From Fontisphaera persica (GTDB taxonomy: Bacteria; Verrucomicrobiota; Verrucomicrobiia; Limisphaerales; Fontisphaeraceae): a stretch of 64,000 nucleotides of DNA. Below the pieces are notes generated by a model. That model was not told the origin of the DNA and ran no database searches. It saw only the letters and a program-made list of their open reading frames with translations. Both the position numbers and the translations under genes were made by a program. The DNA lies in assembly GCF_024832785.1 (NCBI RefSeq), contig NZ_CP116615.1:1302001-1366000 (forward strand), written 5' to 3'. Positions 2,947-12,322 of this stretch are shown piece by piece (the stretch's first letter is position 1; every line of letters begins with the position of its first letter).

Positions 2947-3063
2947 AAAAATTCAGTTGTTTGATGATGTTGCTTGCACAGCCACCCTAAAACAGGTGCG
3001 TAGCCCTGACAAGCCCATCTGTGGTCCGGTTCCCAGTGATATGACAGATGCCGGTCTGTGTCA

Positions 3064-3648
3064 TTACCAACGTTGTTGCCAGCGTTGCCAATCTTCGGGA
3101 GTATCCCAATCATCCAAAACGGAGGCGCTGGGGGCCTCCCATTCAAAGACCTCATGCGGATGGGCTTGCAATAATCCACGCAAGCCCACGCTGTCATATT
3201 GGCTCAGAATTTCCGTAAGGTAGTCGGCGGAGAAAACCAGGGGATGACCGCGCCGTCGCTGAAACACGGGTACGAGTATGGATTTGCCGCAATTGCGCCA
3301 AGCCTCAAGCATCGCACACGTCAAGGAAGCGGTCAGCCCCGGAAGGTCTGCCGGAGTCACGATTACCGTTTCAGTGCCCTTCGGCAAGGCGCGCAGGCCG
3401 CAGCGCACGGAGCTGAGCATGTCGCCCTCGGCGGCGGGATTTTCCACCCACTGCACATGAGGAAGAGCAACAAGGTGCCGAAGGCCCTTGGAGTCCGGCC
3501 TGATGACAATCAGCAAATGCTTCACCAACTCTGGTGGAAAGGCGGCGGCGACTTTGGTCAACAACGGAACACCATCCACAGGCAATAGCTGCTTGGGGAG
3601 GCCCATGCGCCGGGACTGGCCGGCCGCCAGGATGATGGCGCTGGTCAT
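3064..3648 (-). CDS. mocA: MocA-like molybdenum cofactor cytidylyltransferase / NTP transferase
   Basis: A 194-residue nucleotidyltransferase, last gene of the molybdenum-hydroxylase operon. The start at 3648 gives MTSAIILAAGQSRRMGLPKQ, the nucleotide-binding signature of MobA/MocA proteins (LAAGxSxRMGxxK). The TPADLPGL stretch is the metal-binding Asp motif. The family transfers CMP to molybdopterin to make the MCD form of the cofactor used by CO-dehydrogenase-like and xanthine-oxidase-like enzymes. ATG overlaps the stop of xdhC in an ATGA junction, supporting both the start and translational coupling. The context makes MocA more likely than a sugar-nucleotide enzyme. Confidence 0.87.
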   Translation of the reverse strand: MTSAIILAAGQSRRMGLPKQLLPVDGVPLLTKVAAAFPPELVKHLLIVIRPDSKGLRHLVALPHVQWVENPAAEGDMLSSVRCGLRALPKGTETVIVTPADLPGLTASLTCAMLEAWRNCGKSILVPVFQRRRGHPLVFSADYLTEILSQYDSVGLRGLLQAHPHEVFEWEAPSASVLDDWDTPEDWQRWQQRW

Positions 3649-4745
3649 GAATCTGAAGCCAGTGGAATACGTGGCGCGTTGCCTTTGCGGCGTACCGCAA
3701 TAATTTGGGCCAGGATGGCGGTGGCAATTTCCTGCACCGTAACCGCCCCAATATCCAGCCCAATGGGCGCATAAACTTTTTCCCATTGTTCGGCAGTAGC
3801 CCAGCCGCGTTCCAGAAACATCTGGCGCATTAAAGGCACTTTGCGCCGGCTGCCAATCATGCCCAGGTAGCCGGTACAACGCTGAATGCAAATCCGCAAA
3901 GCTTCTGCGTCTTTTTGATGGCCGCGGGTGGCCAGCACAACGCTGGTATCCCTGTCCCAAGATAGGGACGCCAGCGTTTTCTCAATGTCCCCGCACAGCG
4001 TGTGCGTGCCTGGGGGGAAAAGCGCCGGCCGCGCAAATTCCGGGCGGTCTTCGACAACAATGATTTCAAATCCCAAAAGGGCAGCCTGCGCGGCCACTGC
4101 CTGGCCCACATGGCCGCCTCCCACCATGACTAATCGCGGAACGGGTACAACGGGTTCCATGAGTATTTCACCGCGCTGGCCGGGGATTGGCGGCAGATAA
4201 ACGGCGGCTTCGGTTGAAAGACCGGCTGAAATGCACAGGGCCTCCTGCAATCCACCCCGGGGAAAGGGCTGGCCTGCCTCAGTGAAATAACATCGAAGAT
4301 TCCACGGCATTTTTTCGCCAAGCCCAAAAATCCACCAGCCCCGCTTGCGTTCCGCCAAAGCATTGAGGAGCTTTGACAATGCCTCTGCGAATTCGGCGGG
4401 GCGCGGGTCCACGAGCAGGCGCATGCGGCCGCCACAGATGGGACTGGGATCGTGCGGCCCCGGGCCGTGCAAATCAAAGTCAAATACCCTTCGCTCTTGC
4501 GTGGTGAGCGCGGCCATTGCCTGGCGAATGGCTTCCGCCTCCACCGCTCCTCCCCCCACAGTCCCATGAATGGCGCCATCTGCCTCAATTAATGCATGAG
4601 CGCCCGCCGGCAACGGGGTTGAACCTTGTGCGCTCAAGACGGTGACCACGGCGAAAGGCCGTTTTTCATTAAGCAAGGCGTCCGCTCTTCGCCAAAGTGC
4701 GTGAGTGGACGCAGGATGGTTGGGCAACGGGGCAGGGGAGTTCAC
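3645..4745 (-). CDS. xdhC: XdhC/CoxI family molybdenum cofactor insertion protein
   Basis: A 366-residue XdhC/CoxI-type chaperone, expected to bind, sulfurate and insert the molybdenum cofactor into the partner hydroxylase. The N-terminal XdhC_CoxI domain is visible (VTVLSAQGSTPLPAGAHALI then GTVGGGAVEAEA). The C-terminal half is a Rossmann domain (LVMVGGGHVGQAVAAQAALLG) followed by GYLGMIGSRRK, a hallmark of the family. Translation starts at GTG; the GTG overlaps the TGA of the upstream Mo-subunit gene (GTGA), and its own stop overlaps the next ATG. The enzyme probably matures the two-subunit oxidoreductase encoded just upstream. Confidence 0.93.
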   Translation of the reverse strand: MNSPAPLPNHPASTHALWRRADALLNEKRPFAVVTVLSAQGSTPLPAGAHALIEADGAIHGTVGGGAVEAEAIRQAMAALTTQERRVFDFDLHGPGPHDPSPICGGRMRLLVDPRPAEFAEALSKLLNALAERKRGWWIFGLGEKMPWNLRCYFTEAGQPFPRGGLQEALCISAGLSTEAAVYLPPIPGQRGEILMEPVVPVPRLVMVGGGHVGQAVAAQAALLGFEIIVVEDRPEFARPALFPPGTHTLCGDIEKTLASLSWDRDTSVVLATRGHQKDAEALRICIQRCTGYLGMIGSRRKVPLMRQMFLERGWATAEQWEKVYAPIGLDIGAVTVQEIATAILAQIIAVRRKGNAPRIPLASDS

Positions 4746-6889
4746 ATGGCTTGTGCTTCAGCCAGGCGTATCGGCATGGCGCGGACTCGCCGGCCGGTGG
4801 CATGGTAAACCGCGTTGGCAATGGCGGGCGCGATGGCGATGATGGGAGTCTCGCCGCCCCCGGCGCTGGGTAAATCCGGCCGGTTGAGGAGGTGGATGTC
4901 CATTTCGGGCACATCCGCAAAGCGTGGCACGGGGTATTTGCTGAAAGCGGCATTGCGCATTTTACCATTTAGAAATTGCATTTCCTCGCGCAAAGCCGGC
5001 CCCAGCCCCATGAGGATGCAGCTTTGCACCTGCGCCATCAGGTTGTCGGGATTGATAATGGCGCCGCACTCAAACACCTCGCACAAGCGTTTGACCACGA
5101 TGGTCTGGCGCACGGTATCAATTTCGATTTCAACACAGGCGGCCACCACAGAGTTCTTTTCAGTGCCGCAAGCCAATCCCACGCCACAGTTGGGGATTTT
5201 TTGCCGGTATCGCTCCTGCCAGTTGAAACGGCGCGCGGCTTCCTGGAGCACATTCCGAATACGCTCATTTTCCAGATGAGCCAGCCTGAATTCCAACGGA
5301 TCACGCCCGGCCAGGGCTGCCAGCTCGTCCATGAAGGCTTCGCGGGCAAAGTTGTTTGCGGTGGCGGCCAGGGTGCGATAAGAGCCCTGGCGCAGCGGCG
5401 AATTGGAGTTGAGGAAACGGCTGCGAGCGTTACCAGCACGGTAAGGGGTGTCCACAGCGGCGGCGCCAGAGTTGATGTTGAGGAAATACCACGAGGTCAA
5501 TCGCCCTTCCTCATTCAAACTGGCTTCGATATCAATGACGGCGGCCGGTCGAAAGTAGGCCCAAGTGAACTCTTCTTCGCGGGTCCAGTGAACCAAAACA
5601 GGTTTGCCAGCGGCCTGCGCCAGGCGGGCCGCCTCAATGGCCGCCTCGGCCGTATGTTTGCCCCCAAAGCCGCCGCCAAAGTCCGGCACAATCACGCGCA
5701 CATTTTCTGTCGGCAGCCGGAAAGTGCGGGCCAGGTCGCCGTGATACCCGAAAGGCGCCTGGGTGCCTGTCCAGACCGTAAGTTTGCCGTCCTGCCATTC
5801 TGCGAGGGCGGTGCGGGTTTCCATGGGAGCATGCTGAACATACGCCACATGATAGGTGGCCTTGTGCCGCCGGGCGGCTTGCGCCAACTCGTTGGCAAAC
5901 GGATTCGGCGGCACTCCGCCTTGGGCGCGCTGCCGTAAATAATCATATACTTCGCGGGAGGATGGATGGGGCGCGGTATCCCAGCGGGCCGTATTCTCAA
6001 TGGCCTTGAGGGCTTGCTCCGCCTGCCAGCTTGTGGGAGCGGCCACACCCACAAAAGAACCATCGTGCACCGCCACCACTCCCTCCATGGCGCGAGCCGG
6101 CGCAATATCCACCGAGACCAGACGTGCCCCATAGGACGGTGGGCGCAGCACTTTGCCATACAACATTCCCGGCCGGCGCATGTCCGAGGGATATTGGTGT
6201 GCCCCGGTCACCAGGGCCTGCCGATTGACACGCGGGAGAGATTGCCCCATCACCCGCCATTGGGATACCGGCGTGACCTGAACCTCGGCGGGGAGGCGTT
6301 GTTGAAGTATCTTGTCGGCTTCGCCACTTTGCGCCAAGTCCGCATAACTCATGGAGCGGCCAGTGGGCGGATGGGTGATACGCCCGTTTTGGATATTCAG
6401 TGCGGCCGCCTCCACCCCCCATTTTTGTGCGGCAGTGCGAACGAGAAGTTCACGCGCGGCTGCGGCGGCCTGCCGCACGGCTGGCACGGTGGAAGGTGTG
6501 GTGCGGCTGCCGGCGGTAATGCCGTCGTCTGGGGTCAGGGTGGTATCCCCCATTACCATTTGAATCTGCTCCGGCGATACCCGCAATTCTTCGGCAGCAG
6601 CCTGCGTCAATTGGGTCCGCGCCCCCTGGCCCATTTCAATTTTTCCAGTCATCACCGTGATTTTCCCATCACGTGCGATATGCAAACGGCTGGCCAGCGT
6701 TCGTCCCTGGCCGCCGCGCCCGCCACGGTCCTGGCCTTGCACGGAGTTAACGGCAGTCACAATAAGCAAGCCGGCCCCGAGAACTTGAACGAAGCGGCGG
6801 CGATTCAGGCCAAAGTCAAACTCGACGGCGTCGGCGTGTTCGCCATCGTCTTGTAAGGGAGGCGAAGGGAATATTTGGGCGAAGTTCAT
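4742..6889 (-). CDS. Molybdopterin-binding subunit of xanthine-oxidase-family aldehyde/heteroaromatic oxidoreductase
   Basis: A 715-residue molybdenum-binding subunit of the xanthine oxidase family, closest in layout to IorB / CoxL-like two-subunit enzymes. The N-terminal segment LNRRRFVQVLGAGLLIVTAV is a twin-arginine-type signal after a short leader, so the enzyme may be periplasmic. FGGGFGGKHTAEA is the cofactor-binding glycine motif. The catalytic Glu is placed in GGGETPIIAIAPAIANA near the C-terminus. The ATG overlaps the stop of the Fe-S subunit and the stop overlaps the GTG of xdhC. No FAD-binding medium subunit lies nearby, which suggests electrons leave through the Fe-S subunit to another carrier. 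The substrate is not predictable. Confidence 0.9.
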   Translation of the reverse strand: MNFAQIFPSPPLQDDGEHADAVEFDFGLNRRRFVQVLGAGLLIVTAVNSVQGQDRGGRGGQGRTLASRLHIARDGKITVMTGKIEMGQGARTQLTQAAAEELRVSPEQIQMVMGDTTLTPDDGITAGSRTTPSTVPAVRQAAAAARELLVRTAAQKWGVEAAALNIQNGRITHPPTGRSMSYADLAQSGEADKILQQRLPAEVQVTPVSQWRVMGQSLPRVNRQALVTGAHQYPSDMRRPGMLYGKVLRPPSYGARLVSVDIAPARAMEGVVAVHDGSFVGVAAPTSWQAEQALKAIENTARWDTAPHPSSREVYDYLRQRAQGGVPPNPFANELAQAARRHKATYHVAYVQHAPMETRTALAEWQDGKLTVWTGTQAPFGYHGDLARTFRLPTENVRVIVPDFGGGFGGKHTAEAAIEAARLAQAAGKPVLVHWTREEEFTWAYFRPAAVIDIEASLNEEGRLTSWYFLNINSGAAAVDTPYRAGNARSRFLNSNSPLRQGSYRTLAATANNFAREAFMDELAALAGRDPLEFRLAHLENERIRNVLQEAARRFNWQERYRQKIPNCGVGLACGTEKNSVVAACVEIEIDTVRQTIVVKRLCEVFECGAIINPDNLMAQVQSCILMGLGPALREEMQFLNGKMRNAAFSKYPVPRFADVPEMDIHLLNRPDLPSAGGGETPIIAIAPAIANAVYHATGRRVRAMPIRLAEAQAM

Positions 6890-7362
6890 GAGGCTTTGGG
6901 ATGTTCAGCAACGGCGCGCCGGACTGCTTTCAAAATACGCGGATAACCGCAGCACCGGCAGATATGGGGATTCATCCAGGCAAGGATTTCCTGTGGGGAC
7001 GGGCTGGGGTTTTCACGCAACAAAGCTACGGTGGCCATTATCATGCCGGAGGTGCAATAGCCACACTGCATGGCAACTTCTTCCAGGAAAATGCGCTGCA
7101 CAGGGTGAAGTTGGCCATTGGGAGACAGGCCCTCAATGGTGGTGATAAGCCGGCCAACAGCATCCTTGACGGGAACCAGACAGGCGTGCTCGCGGCGTCC
7201 GTCCATAAGCACGGTGCAGGCGCCGCACTGGCCTTCGCCACATCCATATTTGGTGCCGGTCAGCCCCAAATCTTCGCGCAGCACTTGCAACAGCGGTCGC
7301 GCAGGATCGGTGGTCACGGTGTGCCGCCGGCCGTTGACGGTCAAAGTAAAAGCGGTAGGCAT
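6886..7362 (-). CDS. (2Fe-2S)-binding small subunit of molybdenum hydroxylase
   Basis: A 158-residue small subunit carrying two [2Fe-2S] clusters, first gene of a four-gene operon. The N-terminal plant-ferredoxin domain has the motif CGEGQCGACTVLMDG. The C-terminal helical domain has CGYCTSGM and ICRCCGYPRI, which bind the second cluster. Length and order match CoxS / IorA / XdhA-small subunits. Its stop overlaps the ATG of the molybdenum subunit (ATGA). It has no signal peptide of its own; in this family the small subunit can be exported by hitchhiking with a Tat-tagged large subunit, which fits the signal on its partner. Confidence 0.95.
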   Translation of the reverse strand: MPTAFTLTVNGRRHTVTTDPARPLLQVLREDLGLTGTKYGCGEGQCGACTVLMDGRREHACLVPVKDAVGRLITTIEGLSPNGQLHPVQRIFLEEVAMQCGYCTSGMIMATVALLRENPSPSPQEILAWMNPHICRCCGYPRILKAVRRAVAEHPKAS

Positions 7363-7462
7363 GGCTGTGCCTGACTATTAACGCGGCGAGCAGGCGGTGA
7401 CAAGGCAGAATGAGCCTGGCGCAAGCTAAAGCACCGTCCCTTAGGGCAATTGGCAATCCCTT

Positions 7463-7476
7463 TTGAACCGTATCAA
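7463..7476 (-). promoter_or_regulatory. FNR/DNR-like box upstream of the molybdenum-hydroxylase operon
   Basis: TTGAACCGTATCAA matches the FNR/DNR consensus TTGAT-N4-ATCAA at 9 of 10 defined positions. It sits about 100 bases upstream of the start of the (2Fe-2S) subunit. No strong -10 hexamer is seen at the class II distance, so the site could act as class I or simply be a weak match. A second box of the same type lies upstream of the next gene. Confidence 0.45.
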
Positions 7477-7592
7477 AGGCAAAGCCATTAAGCGCTGACG
7501 TAAGCTTCTTGAAAAGCCGTCATCGCTATGGCCCCCTGATTTATAATGCAACAACTGGAGGTGTGGCCTGGGATGGGGAGGCTTCCATGCCC

Positions 7593-8108
7593 CTAACTTT
7601 TTTCATGGAAGAACTCCACTTTCCAGGTGCCATCAGGTTGCATGGTTGACCGATGGGTGAAACCTTCGCGAGCCAGTTTGGCATAGAGTGGCAGCGGCTC
7701 GAAGGGCACCAGCAGCACGAAGCTGCTGCCTGGCGGGGTCTGGGCCGCCGCTTCATCAATCAAGGCACAGGGCGGTTCGCCGCGTTGAAAAAGTGGACGG
7801 GTGTCCACGGTCAACGGGCAGTCAGAAGGGGAGGTAGCGGCAGATTTTTTGCGAGGCGGCTTGAAGCCGGGGTCGGGATAATATCCCTTGGCGATGCGGA
7901 CGCGCCAGGTTTGCGGCCCTTTTTCCAGGTATTCCCAATGAAAGGCACCGGTATGTTCGCAAGCAAATTGATAATAAAGCGGCAAGGGATCATGGTCATT
8001 GACGAGCTCCATCACGGCCCCTTCGGGCAACTCACCCCACACCGCGAAGACCTGCTTGTGCCGTTGCCCGGCGGGCAACGTGCGGACATCGAGTTCAATA
8101 TTAGGCAT
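7593..8108 (-). CDS. Tandem DUF2249 domain protein
   Basis: A 171-residue cytosolic protein with two DUF2249 copies. The first (about residues 4-75) has LDVRTLPAGQRH, LVNDHDPLPLYYQF and WEYLEKGPQTWRVRI. The second (about 95-170) has VDTRPLFQRGEPP, LLVPFEPLPLYAKL and a final WKVEFF strand. DUF2249 proteins often occur near nitrogen-oxide and anaerobic respiration genes; their biochemical role is not established. The first domain begins almost at the ATG, so the start cannot be far downstream. There is no convincing ribosome binding site before the ATG. The upstream FNR-like box and -10 element place a transcription start at or next to the ATG, so the message may be leaderless. Confidence 0.85.
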   Translation of the reverse strand: MPNIELDVRTLPAGQRHKQVFAVWGELPEGAVMELVNDHDPLPLYYQFACEHTGAFHWEYLEKGPQTWRVRIAKGYYPDPGFKPPRKKSAATSPSDCPLTVDTRPLFQRGEPPCALIDEAAAQTPPGSSFVLLVPFEPLPLYAKLAREGFTHRSTMQPDGTWKVEFFHEKS

Positions 8109-8114
8109 GACTCA

Positions 8115-8120
8115 AAGATA
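8115..8120 (-). promoter_or_regulatory. Candidate extended -10 element for the DUF2249 gene
   Basis: On the minus strand the hexamer TATCTT is preceded by TGC, giving an extended -10. Its centre is 31 bases from the centre of the FNR-like box, exactly the spacing of a class II (box at -41.5) promoter. Transcription would start within a base or two of the ATG at 8108. Confidence 0.45.
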
Positions 8121-8141
8121 GCATGTACTGGCCATTTGTCT

Positions 8142-8155
8142 TTGACGCATATCAA
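8142..8155 (-). promoter_or_regulatory. FNR/DNR-like box upstream of the DUF2249 gene
   Basis: TTGACGCATATCAA matches TTGAT-N4-ATCAA at 9 of 10 defined positions. It is placed 34-47 bases upstream of the DUF2249 start codon, at the class II distance from a TATCTT -10 element. A CRP/FNR-family activator responding to oxygen or nitric oxide is the natural candidate regulator; none is encoded in this window. Confidence 0.55.
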
Positions 8156-9349: not shown

Positions 9350-12322
9350 TCATGTCGGCGATAAGCTGGCATTCGCAGGGGCGGGGGCCAGTGGCTTTTC
9401 CAAAACTTCGCGAATGATGTTGGTTAACTTGGAAATGGTATAGGGCTTGGGCAGGATGGCGAAAACCCCGCCAATCATTTTTTCCCATTCGGCCAGCTCG
9501 ACGCTGTAGCCCGTGGAAAAAATGACGCGCAAGTCCGGCTTCTCTGCACGGAGCGTTTGCACCAGCTCCAAGCCGCTCATTTGGCCGGGCAAAACCATGT
9601 CGCTGAACACCAGGGCAATCTGGTCTTTGCTCAGATTCCAAATCTGCAGGGCTTCATGGGCATGCTCAGCTTCAAGGATTTGATAACCGGCCCGGCGCAG
9701 GCAGTTGGCCAGACCTCTCCGGACGGCGGGTTCATCTTCGACAACCAGAATCGTTTCCGACCCCCTGACAATGGCAGGGGAAGCTGGTGGGCTCGCGGTG
9801 ACCGCATTTTCTGGAGCCGCCAAAGGCAAATACACAGCAAAAGTAGTCCCCTTGCCCACTTCACTACGGACTTCGACCCAGCCTCCATGCTGTTTGACGA
9901 TGCCTTCCACCGTTGCCAATCCCAATCCAGTGCCTTTACCCGGCTCTTTGGTGGTGAAGAAGGGATCAAAAATCCGGGCCATGATTTCCGGCGGCATGCC
10001 ACAGCCAGTGTCCGTGACGGTCACCACCGCAAAACATCCCGGCCTGCCTTGGGGATGTTCACCGAGGTCAGGCTCCGCCATTTGCTGCTTGCTTACGGCA
10101 ATGTGCAGATGCCCTCCTTTGGGCATGGCATCCCGGGAATTGACGGCCAAGTTTAATAATACTTGTCCCAACAGGCTGACATCGGCATGCAGCCACAGCG
10201 GTTCAGGCGCAGGAGTAAAGGTAATTTCAATATTTTCCCCCACTGTCCGGCGCAAAAGCTTCTGCATATCCATGACGCAGCCATTCAAATCCACGGATTT
10301 TTTCTCCATGGGGGAACGTCGGCTATACAGCAGCAATTGCCGGGTGAGATTGGCTGCACGTTCCGCCAACTGATTCAATTCGGTAATGGCATTCCGCACG
10401 GGTGGCGACAGACTCTCTTCTTCGAGCAATTCCTGGTAGTGCAGCATCATCGCGGAAAGGATATTATTGAAGTCGTGGGCAACGCCGCCGGCAAGCTGGC
10501 CAATGGCCTCAATTGTCTGCGCCTGAAACAATTGTTGTTGTAAATGATCCCGCTCGATTTCCACCCGGATGCGCTGGGTTACATCACTCAGACAGACCAG
10601 CAGACGCTGCTGGCCGTCAACCTCCACCCGGCAGACATTGCCTTGCAGATGAAGGGGTTCTTGGGGTGATTTACCGGCCAGTTGCAATTGACATTCCACC
10701 TCCGTACAGCATTGGCGGGATGCCAGGAGTTCCTGGAGACTGATGCGCAAGTGGCATTGCAGGCAGACTTCCGCCGAGCCGCAGCCGTTAGGCGCTGTAA
10801 CAGCATGCACACACTTGATCAAATCCCCCACACTTCCTTTGAAACAGGCGTTCCAGTGAGTATCGGTAGCCCCGCCCAGTCGGCGCGCCGCACGATTAGC
10901 TCGCAGTGTTTGCAATTTCTCATCCAGCAACAGCATGATCATGGGTGCCTGCTCGTAAACGGCTTCCAACTCCCGCTGGGTGGCTTGCAGGCGGCGTTCT
11001 ATATGGCGCTGCGCGGTGATGTCCAATACGATGCCTTCCAGAAATATGGGCTTGCCTTTCTCATCATAATGCGCGCGCCCTTTCTCAAAAACATGGCGGA
11101 TTCCTCCGTCGGGACGAACTATGCGGTAAGTGGCCTCATAAGGCTGGTGAGCGCCGACCGCCTCTTCCACTATGCGGTCCAGTTCCGCCAGGTCCTCCGG
11201 ATGCACCATGTCGGCGTAGGTTAGTTTGCCATCGGTGAATTCGGTTGGCGGGCGACCAGTAATGGCTTCGGAGCCTTCGCTGAAAAAATGCACCCGCCAA
11301 GGCGCGTGAACATCGCACTGATAAACCCCACCGGGGATATTGGCCAAAAGGGTTTGGAGCTGCCGTTCGCGCTCTTCCAACAGCTTGGCCATTTGAAGCT
11401 GGCGCCGTTCGGCCTGCAGTCGCTTCAGGGCAAAACTCATGTCTGCCGCCACTTCCTCGAGCAAGGCAATTTCACGCTCCGTAAAGGCATCGGGAGCGAA
11501 GCTGCAGACCGTCAAAGCCCCCCAAATCCCGGAGGTATCGTACAGGGGAAAAGAAGCGCAACTGGTGATTTGATGGTGCTCAATAATATGTTTCCAGGGC
11601 GCCAGGCGAGGGTCAGCGACATCCAGGCGCGACACCACGGGTTGCTGAGTGCGAATGGCGGTGCCAGTAGGCCCCAGTCCCTCGGGCCGTTCGTCGGCAT
11701 AGACAATGATTTCTTCTTTATCAACAGGATGCAGTCCATAGGCCGCTACCGGTCTCACTTGCTGGGTCTGTGCGTCCAATTTTCCCACCCAAGCCAGGCA
11801 AAACCCACCCTTTTCGATGGCTGCCCGGCAGCAGGTTTCCAACATCTCCTCCTCGGTTTGGGAGCGCACCACGGTCTGATTCACCATGCTCAGCGTGGCA
11901 TAAAGATGACTGAGCCGGTGGGCTTCGATTTCCTTTTCTTTGCGCAGCGTAATGTCCGTGGCCACCGTGGCAAACTGCCCGGGACTGGGACAGAAAACGG
12001 AAATCAGGAAGTACTTGCGCATGGGCGCGTAGTACGTCTCAAATTGTTCAGCAATGCCGGACTGGGCCACGCGCGCATAAATGTCGAGATAAGGAGGGGG
12101 GGATTGCTGATAAACCGCGGAAGCTAATTTGCCGTTGGCCTTTTCCCAGGTTATCCCCGTCACATGGGTGAAGGCGGGGTTGGTGTCCAGAATGCGGTAA
12201 TCCACAGGGGCGCCCGCCTCGTCGCACACCAATTCGTGCAGCGCCACGATTTCGGTCATGTGCTCGTGCAATAACTCGATTCCTTTGGACAAGGAGCGCT
12301 TGTACGAATGGTCTGGTTTCAT
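9350..12322 (-). CDS. PAS-GAF-PAS-PAS hybrid histidine kinase with C-terminal receiver
   Basis: A 990-residue soluble sensory kinase. Order: PAS (about 20-130), GAF (about 145-310), PAS/PAC (about 325-450; ends EGIVLDITAQRHIERRL), a third PAS (about 460-590) with a four-cysteine insertion (CFKGSVGDLIKC...CGSAEVCLQCHLR), HisKA with the phospho-acceptor His about 616 in VAHDFNN, an HATPase with TDTGCGMP and GKGTGLGL motifs, and a receiver with the acceptor Asp about 908 (FSDMVLPG). There are no transmembrane helices, so the signal is cytosolic. No DNA-binding response regulator is adjacent; phosphotransfer probably goes to an internal receiver first. The cysteine cluster may bind metal or sense redox. 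Confidence 0.92.
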   Translation of the reverse strand: MKPDHSYKRSLSKGIELLHEHMTEIVALHELVCDEAGAPVDYRILDTNPAFTHVTGITWEKANGKLASAVYQQSPPPYLDIYARVAQSGIAEQFETYYAPMRKYFLISVFCPSPGQFATVATDITLRKEKEIEAHRLSHLYATLSMVNQTVVRSQTEEEMLETCCRAAIEKGGFCLAWVGKLDAQTQQVRPVAAYGLHPVDKEEIIVYADERPEGLGPTGTAIRTQQPVVSRLDVADPRLAPWKHIIEHHQITSCASFPLYDTSGIWGALTVCSFAPDAFTEREIALLEEVAADMSFALKRLQAERRQLQMAKLLEERERQLQTLLANIPGGVYQCDVHAPWRVHFFSEGSEAITGRPPTEFTDGKLTYADMVHPEDLAELDRIVEEAVGAHQPYEATYRIVRPDGGIRHVFEKGRAHYDEKGKPIFLEGIVLDITAQRHIERRLQATQRELEAVYEQAPMIMLLLDEKLQTLRANRAARRLGGATDTHWNACFKGSVGDLIKCVHAVTAPNGCGSAEVCLQCHLRISLQELLASRQCCTEVECQLQLAGKSPQEPLHLQGNVCRVEVDGQQRLLVCLSDVTQRIRVEIERDHLQQQLFQAQTIEAIGQLAGGVAHDFNNILSAMMLHYQELLEEESLSPPVRNAITELNQLAERAANLTRQLLLYSRRSPMEKKSVDLNGCVMDMQKLLRRTVGENIEITFTPAPEPLWLHADVSLLGQVLLNLAVNSRDAMPKGGHLHIAVSKQQMAEPDLGEHPQGRPGCFAVVTVTDTGCGMPPEIMARIFDPFFTTKEPGKGTGLGLATVEGIVKQHGGWVEVRSEVGKGTTFAVYLPLAAPENAVTASPPASPAIVRGSETILVVEDEPAVRRGLANCLRRAGYQILEAEHAHEALQIWNLSKDQIALVFSDMVLPGQMSGLELVQTLRAEKPDLRVIFSTGYSVELAEWEKMIGGVFAILPKPYTISKLTNIIREVLEKPLAPAPANASLSPT

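Follow-up and report, generated by a model that had tools for sequence, protein, structure and literature searches.

The FNR/DNR-type site TTGATATGCGTCAA (box 1; positions 8142 to 8155, minus strand) is very probably the operator through which a DNR-type activator serves the adjoining DUF2249 gene, with the nearby molybdenum-hydroxylase operon an unrelated unit and the similar site in front of that operon (box 2) a chance match. Positions are those of the window, i.e., the whole stretch of 64,000 nucleotides that was analysed. An earlier note on this DNA had proposed that the two boxes govern both neighbouring units; the half of that proposal that concerns box 1 and DUF2249 holds up, whereas the half that concerns box 2 and the molybdenum operon does not. 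Site, linkage, and co-occurrence together connect DUF2249, a family of unknown function, with one particular regulator; a small cupin emerges as its candidate partner, and the tempting idea that NO controls a molybdenum hydroxylase is set aside as unsupported.

The DUF2249 promoter and its conservation

Box 1 is a perfect match to TTGAY-N4-RTCAA and carries 9 of the 10 defined bases of TTGAT-N4-ATCAA, as does box 2 (TTGATACGGTTCAA, 7463 to 7476, minus strand), just as the earlier note had it for both 14-mers. Read along the minus strand, TTGATATGCGTCAA is followed after 21 nt by TATCTT (8120 to 8115), a proposed -10 element, and then after 6 nt by the DUF2249 start codon (ATG, 8108). If the A of this ATG is taken as +1, the box is centred at -40.5, 1 nt away from -41.5, and relative to this predicted start the arrangement is that of a class II site, which lies at about -41.5 and about 22 nt ahead of the -10 element. 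The class II placement claimed for box 1 is therefore sound, but the distance is not "exact," the gap to the hexamer being 21 and not 22. A TANNNT hexamer at a gap of 21 or 22 is expected at few places, as 1.0% of window positions offer one. From the 6 nt that separate the hexamer from the ATG, the DUF2249 message is predicted to be almost leaderless, and may indeed begin at the ATG or within a few nucleotides of it.

The gene itself (7593 to 8108, minus strand) encodes a protein of 171 amino acids with two DUF2249 domains, which match PF10006 in two stretches (E = 2.8e-40; 136.4 bits against a cut-off of 29.5). A few genes upstream and on the same strand is a hybrid sensor kinase with GAF and PAS domains (9350 to 12322), ahead of which there is no box with one mismatch or fewer.

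Box 1 is retained at all 14 positions in the congener, where the flanks have diverged, the DUF2249 protein is 79% identical, and a different hexamer (TAGTTT) is likewise followed 6 nt on by the ATG. An exact box is also kept in the DUF2249 promoters of three relatives (52 to 57% protein identity) and in six of seven further orthologs (49 to 56%), for a total of 11 among 12 full-length orthologs of at least 49% identity, all of them distinct DNA, against a background of 0.009 exact sites per 205 bp; this count includes the present genome and excludes genome G029 (41% identity, no box) and more distant loci. No box lies within 200 nt at locus L193, a close ortholog. The second element is less constant: TANNNT stands at a gap of 21 or 22 in 6 of the 11 boxed orthologs and is missing there from the other 5, and adding six paralogs and distant homologs gives 12 of 17, a figure biased upward because these six were chosen after their box, and for some also their promoter letters, had been seen.

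Farther away the box is mostly lost, namely, from G029 and from eight of the nine distant loci L198 to L206. Across all 30 DUF2249 loci, second genes of operons and distant domains included, an exact box lies no more than 90 nt from the match at 10. Over a set of 80 loci, an exact box occurs within 200 nt at 9 of 22 Verrucomicrobiota loci (three of which, L191, L196, and L219, are labelled only "bacterium") versus 4 of 58 others. A palindromic operator of the TTGAT-N4-ATCAA type is conserved in orthologs in the case of box 1 and fails to be so in that of box 2. The box that the earlier note placed in front of the DUF2249 gene is thus conserved in relatives and class II-placed, and the genome encodes a DNR-like regulator.

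Statistics on the letters alone do not decide whether the boxes function. The window holds four sites with at most one mismatch to TTGAT-N4-ATCAA versus 1.7 expected, a number reached in 13 of 100 shuffles, and five sites for the relaxed word versus 5.7 expected. Scanning the whole genome (a single contig of 4.73 Mb), a check that the earlier note had proposed, returns 149 sites with at most one mismatch and 35 exact boxes, versus 3 per strand for the reversed pattern, a weak control both here and for the two structured patterns described below because its word composition differs from that of the real pattern. When ORFs are called mechanically, 27 of the 34 exact boxes outside the window fall within one (that of the cupin discussed below among them), and of the 7 that do not, 4 (L010, L030, L032, and L038) precede no obvious target. 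The motif by itself therefore predicts little. It is conservation and promoter context that raise box 1 above chance, and box 2 has neither. One of the boxes without a target, the perfect TTGATAGCTATCAA at G000:C1:3549659 (L032), adjoins an apparent CRISPR-type repeat array, the repeats of which translate as LHCLSAFTAFPT.

A DNR-like regulator and its distribution

The genome was searched with HTH_Crp_2 for Crp/Fnr-like regulators, as the earlier note had advised, and yields one match over the cut-off and three weak ones. The former is a Crp/Fnr-type protein of 238 amino acids (G000:C1:2604848-2605573) with a cNMP-binding domain (PF00027) and a helix-turn-helix domain (PF13545), and its best characterised solved relative is DNR of Pseudomonas aeruginosa (3dkw, E = 1.6e-26), although higher scores go to two chains that bear just the title "cyclic nucleotide-binding protein." The protein falls below the NCBIfam cut-offs of all listed regulators, FtrB and Fnr being nearest. 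Its recognition helix reads VSETLSR, in which we take E..SR to be of the FNR type. The iron-sulfur-type cluster of FNR needs four cysteines, and the protein has two, too few for such a cluster; it therefore combines the cNMP-binding fold and an FNR-type helix with the absence of an FNR cysteine cluster. In the approximately 400 nt ahead of its own ATG, there is no box with two mismatches or fewer.

Orthologues of this regulator are present in 30 of 58 genomes, the present one counted, and accompany DUF2249 closely: a DUF2249 match occurs in 21 genomes, and 19 of these also carry the regulator (p = 7e-6, by a Fisher test that, like the others reported here, treats the 58 genomes of 57 genera as independent and ignores kinship). 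Matches were accepted at an E value of ≤1e-3 for DUF2249, ≤1e-40 for the regulator, and ≤1e-20 for the molybdenum-hydroxylase small subunit. On one contig, the two genes are at most 3.4 kb apart in 11 genomes, and no more than 200 bp apart in 8 of these; several of the 11 linked DUF2249 matches are weak single domains, and one, in G008, has an internal stop. In G010, a 66% identical regulator is grouped with DUF2249 matches and four exact boxes, and the cluster also encodes a COX1-like protein and a cupin-like ORF. Two genomes depart from the pairing: G004 has DUF2249 without the regulator, and G005 (82% complete) has a box and DUF2249 but no regulator match at E ≤ 1e-40.

The second box and the molybdenum-hydroxylase operon

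The operon downstream of the DUF2249 gene consists, all on the minus strand, of genes for the 2Fe-2S small subunit of a molybdenum hydroxylase (6886 to 7362; PF01799, E = 6.4e-29, and PF00111), its large subunit (4742 to 6889; PF20256 and PF02738), the N terminus of which resembles what we take to be a twin-arginine signal, an XdhC/CoxI-family maturation factor (3645 to 4745; PF13478, E = 6e-34, and PF02625), and a MobA-like nucleotidyltransferase (3064 to 3651; PF12804, E = 6e-37). The congener has no DNA that matches approximately 2973 to 7598, the block of molybdenum-hydroxylase, XdhC, and MobA genes, and its DUF2249 gene adjoins a Gfo/Idh oxidoreductase gene at that place; nor does its genome contain a small-subunit homologue at E ≤ 1e-20. 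Judging by this pair of genomes, the block was gained or lost within the genus.

The earlier note put this operon under oxygen or NO control by way of box 2. Both boxes would then be functional, and box 2 would have to serve as an upstream site, of class I or another kind. In favour of this are the 9 consensus bases of box 2, its location inside the 230-nt gap ahead of the operon, and a sigma-70-like element downstream of it (TTGTCA-18-AATAGT, 7374 to 7403, minus strand), a possible operon promoter by consensus match only; moreover, the DUF2249 promoter of one relative (L062) has a one-mismatch site whose altered base is likewise that at position 10 and whose spacing suits class II well. Nevertheless, box 2 has no TANNNT at a gap of 20 to 24 on the minus strand, and a box with up to one mismatch precedes none of 29 small-subunit homologues in relatives within up to 350 nt upstream (these being the matches with a locus among 37 found, with only 270 nt available for L095 and 116 nt for L096, and many of them, at 40 to 69% identity, possibly paralogs). 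The operon is missing from the congener, and of the 23 genomes with the small subunit, 14 have the regulator (p = 0.29) and 10 have DUF2249 (p = 0.41), so that it co-occurs with neither; sites with at most one mismatch are as common as the genome-wide count indicates. For want of a -10 element, of conservation in relatives, of the operon in the congener, and of co-occurrence, we regard box 2, which has one mismatch, as a probable chance match, reject it as an operator of the operon, and consider joint control by two working boxes very improbable.

Slightly more probable, but still unlikely, is that the operon is expressed together with DUF2249 solely by read-through from the box 1 promoter, which is the likeliest remaining route to NO control of the operon. 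The two units are on the same strand, separated only by the 230-nt gap, and a scan of the minus strand from 7593 to 7362 for terminator-like hairpins (other types of terminator being outside that scan) found none; against read-through, one of the two congeneric genomes searched has these units side by side and the other does not, and the element at 7374 to 7403 offers the operon a candidate promoter of its own. The remaining alternative leaves the DUF2249 promoter as described and replaces its reader, box 1 being recognised by an oxygen-sensing FNR and not by a DNR-type protein. FNR and DNR share the half-site present in box 1, and an E..SR helix is compatible with either, but the sole HTH_Crp_2 match over the cut-off has just two cysteines and is nearer to DNR than to FNR by solved-structure scores, which makes an FNR quite improbable. 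Control of DUF2249 through box 1 by the DNR-type activator, with the operon as an unrelated neighbouring unit, is the reading that we carry forward.

A candidate regulon and comparison with known systems

Of the genome's 35 exact boxes, five occupy promoter positions of notable genes: DUF2249, a small cupin (2164615; PF07883), hcp (3892993; PF03063), an Alginate_exp porin (3392934), and a cytochrome c-narG-narH operon (812529; narG matching TIGR01580 with 1545 bits). All but the last fit the pattern box-N20-24-TANNNT-N3-60-ATG, for which the weak reversed control gives no match, although the ATG that completes the hcp match is not that of the gene, which starts 111 nt beyond the box. At the nar promoter, the class II place is taken by GATGCT and not by TANNNT. 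The cupin, at G000:C1:2164663 (L119, 1549 to 1893), is a protein of 114 amino acids whose gene has the same class II box and a 6-nt leader. In the congener, the porin and the cupin are boxed as well.

With the narrower pattern box-N20-23-TANNNT-N3-12-ATG, we obtained 55 distinct matches in 27 of the 58 genomes, versus one for the weak reversed control. The regulator is enriched where such promoters occur, being present in 21 of these 27 genomes and in 9 of the other 31 (p = 2.6e-4, with kinship again ignored). ORFs of at least 60 amino acids follow 32 of the matches and do not follow the other 23 (one of which, L173, was judged on 201 bases). The cupin is the commonest target of this promoter type, with 11 of the 32 coding matches, ahead of DUF2249 with 7; the congener's porin accounts for 1, and among the remaining targets are genes for a YgbA_NO protein, a hemerythrin, and a cytochrome c, together with some of no obvious relation. 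Spacing is tighter than the pattern demands: the gap is 21 or 22 in 31 of the 32 coding matches (20 to 23 being allowed), and the leader after the hexamer is 6 to 9 nt in 29 of them (3 to 12 allowed), so that the messages are predicted to be leaderless or nearly so.

Several of these targets belong to nitrogen-oxide metabolism, namely, hcp and narGH in the present genome and YgbA_NO and hemerythrin in relatives, the latter two identified from fragments; the porin and the cupin are not, by name, nitrogen-oxide genes. Searches for NirK, a NosZ model, and COX1 returned no match to NirK, one partial match to the NosZ model, near a COX1 gene, that is taken for a CuA domain, and two COX1 proteins. 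From these a source of NO is not obvious, and the presence of nar and hcp without NirK suggests that the module may serve nitrite or NO stress as opposed to full denitrification. Cupin and DUF2249 genes are accompanied in two relatives by a gene for a COX1-like membrane protein (523 to 536 amino acids; L081, 7648 to 9219; L186, 1540 to 3150). The L081 protein, which lies between DUF2249 genes, was considered as an NO reductase, a candidacy that was dropped for lack of a solved-structure match.

Under the preferred reading, nitrogen oxides, most likely NO, would cause the activator at low oxygen to bind as a dimer to a TTGAY-N4-RTCAA site some 41 bp ahead of the start, where it would touch RNA polymerase in the class II position and thereby replace a -35 element. 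The -10 element would then fire, with transcription starting at the ATG or a few nucleotides from it, and the product would be the tandem DUF2249 protein, which we take as an accessory protein of nitrate or NO metabolism. The same activator would presumably drive hcp, the cytochrome c-narGH operon, the small cupin, and the porin in this genome, and the molybdenum-hydroxylase operon would stand apart. More tentatively, the boxed promoters could belong to an order-wide DNR-type regulon of Verrucomicrobiota in which small cupin and DUF2249 genes behind class II leaderless promoters are the commonest targets, a stand-alone NO/nitrite response module that would work even in a genome where no NirK or full-length NosZ is found.

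A literature search returned, among the matches listed, no description of a DNR regulon in Verrucomicrobiota. Control of a DUF2249 gene by a DNR-type regulator is not itself new, given published cases in Ralstonia, Thermus, and Haloferax, in which we take COG4309 to be DUF2249 and DnrT to be a Crp/Fnr protein. A candidate DNR site is reported to precede COG4309-norB in Ralstonia solanacearum, and COG4309 was suggested to be relevant to NO reductase function (Rodionov et al. 2005, PMC1274295). In Thermus thermophilus, expression of DrpA, a DUF2249 protein, needs DnrT, a master regulator of nitrate respiration, and loss of drpAB abolishes anaerobic growth with nitrate (PMC6282519), and in Haloferax mediterranei, all four DUF2249 genes are induced under denitrifying conditions (PMC11218638).

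Set against these systems, the arrangement reported here resembles the proteobacterial DNR regulons in its FNR-like, putatively NO-responsive activator and in having hcp as a target, as in some of those genomes (PMC1274295), but differs in its verrucomicrobial host, in a DUF2249 gene that is not beside norB in the window, and in promoters predicted to be nearly leaderless. With the DrpA/DnrT system it has in common a DUF2249 protein dependent, here very probably, on a regulator of the nitrate-respiration type, whereas the Thermus drpA gene shares an operon with drpB, next to nar (PMC6282519), and the present gene encodes two DUF2249 domains, with nar elsewhere in the genome. The haloarchaeal DUF2249 genes differ in their archaeal host and have a promoter motif of another kind (CGAAYATDKTYG) (PMC11218638).
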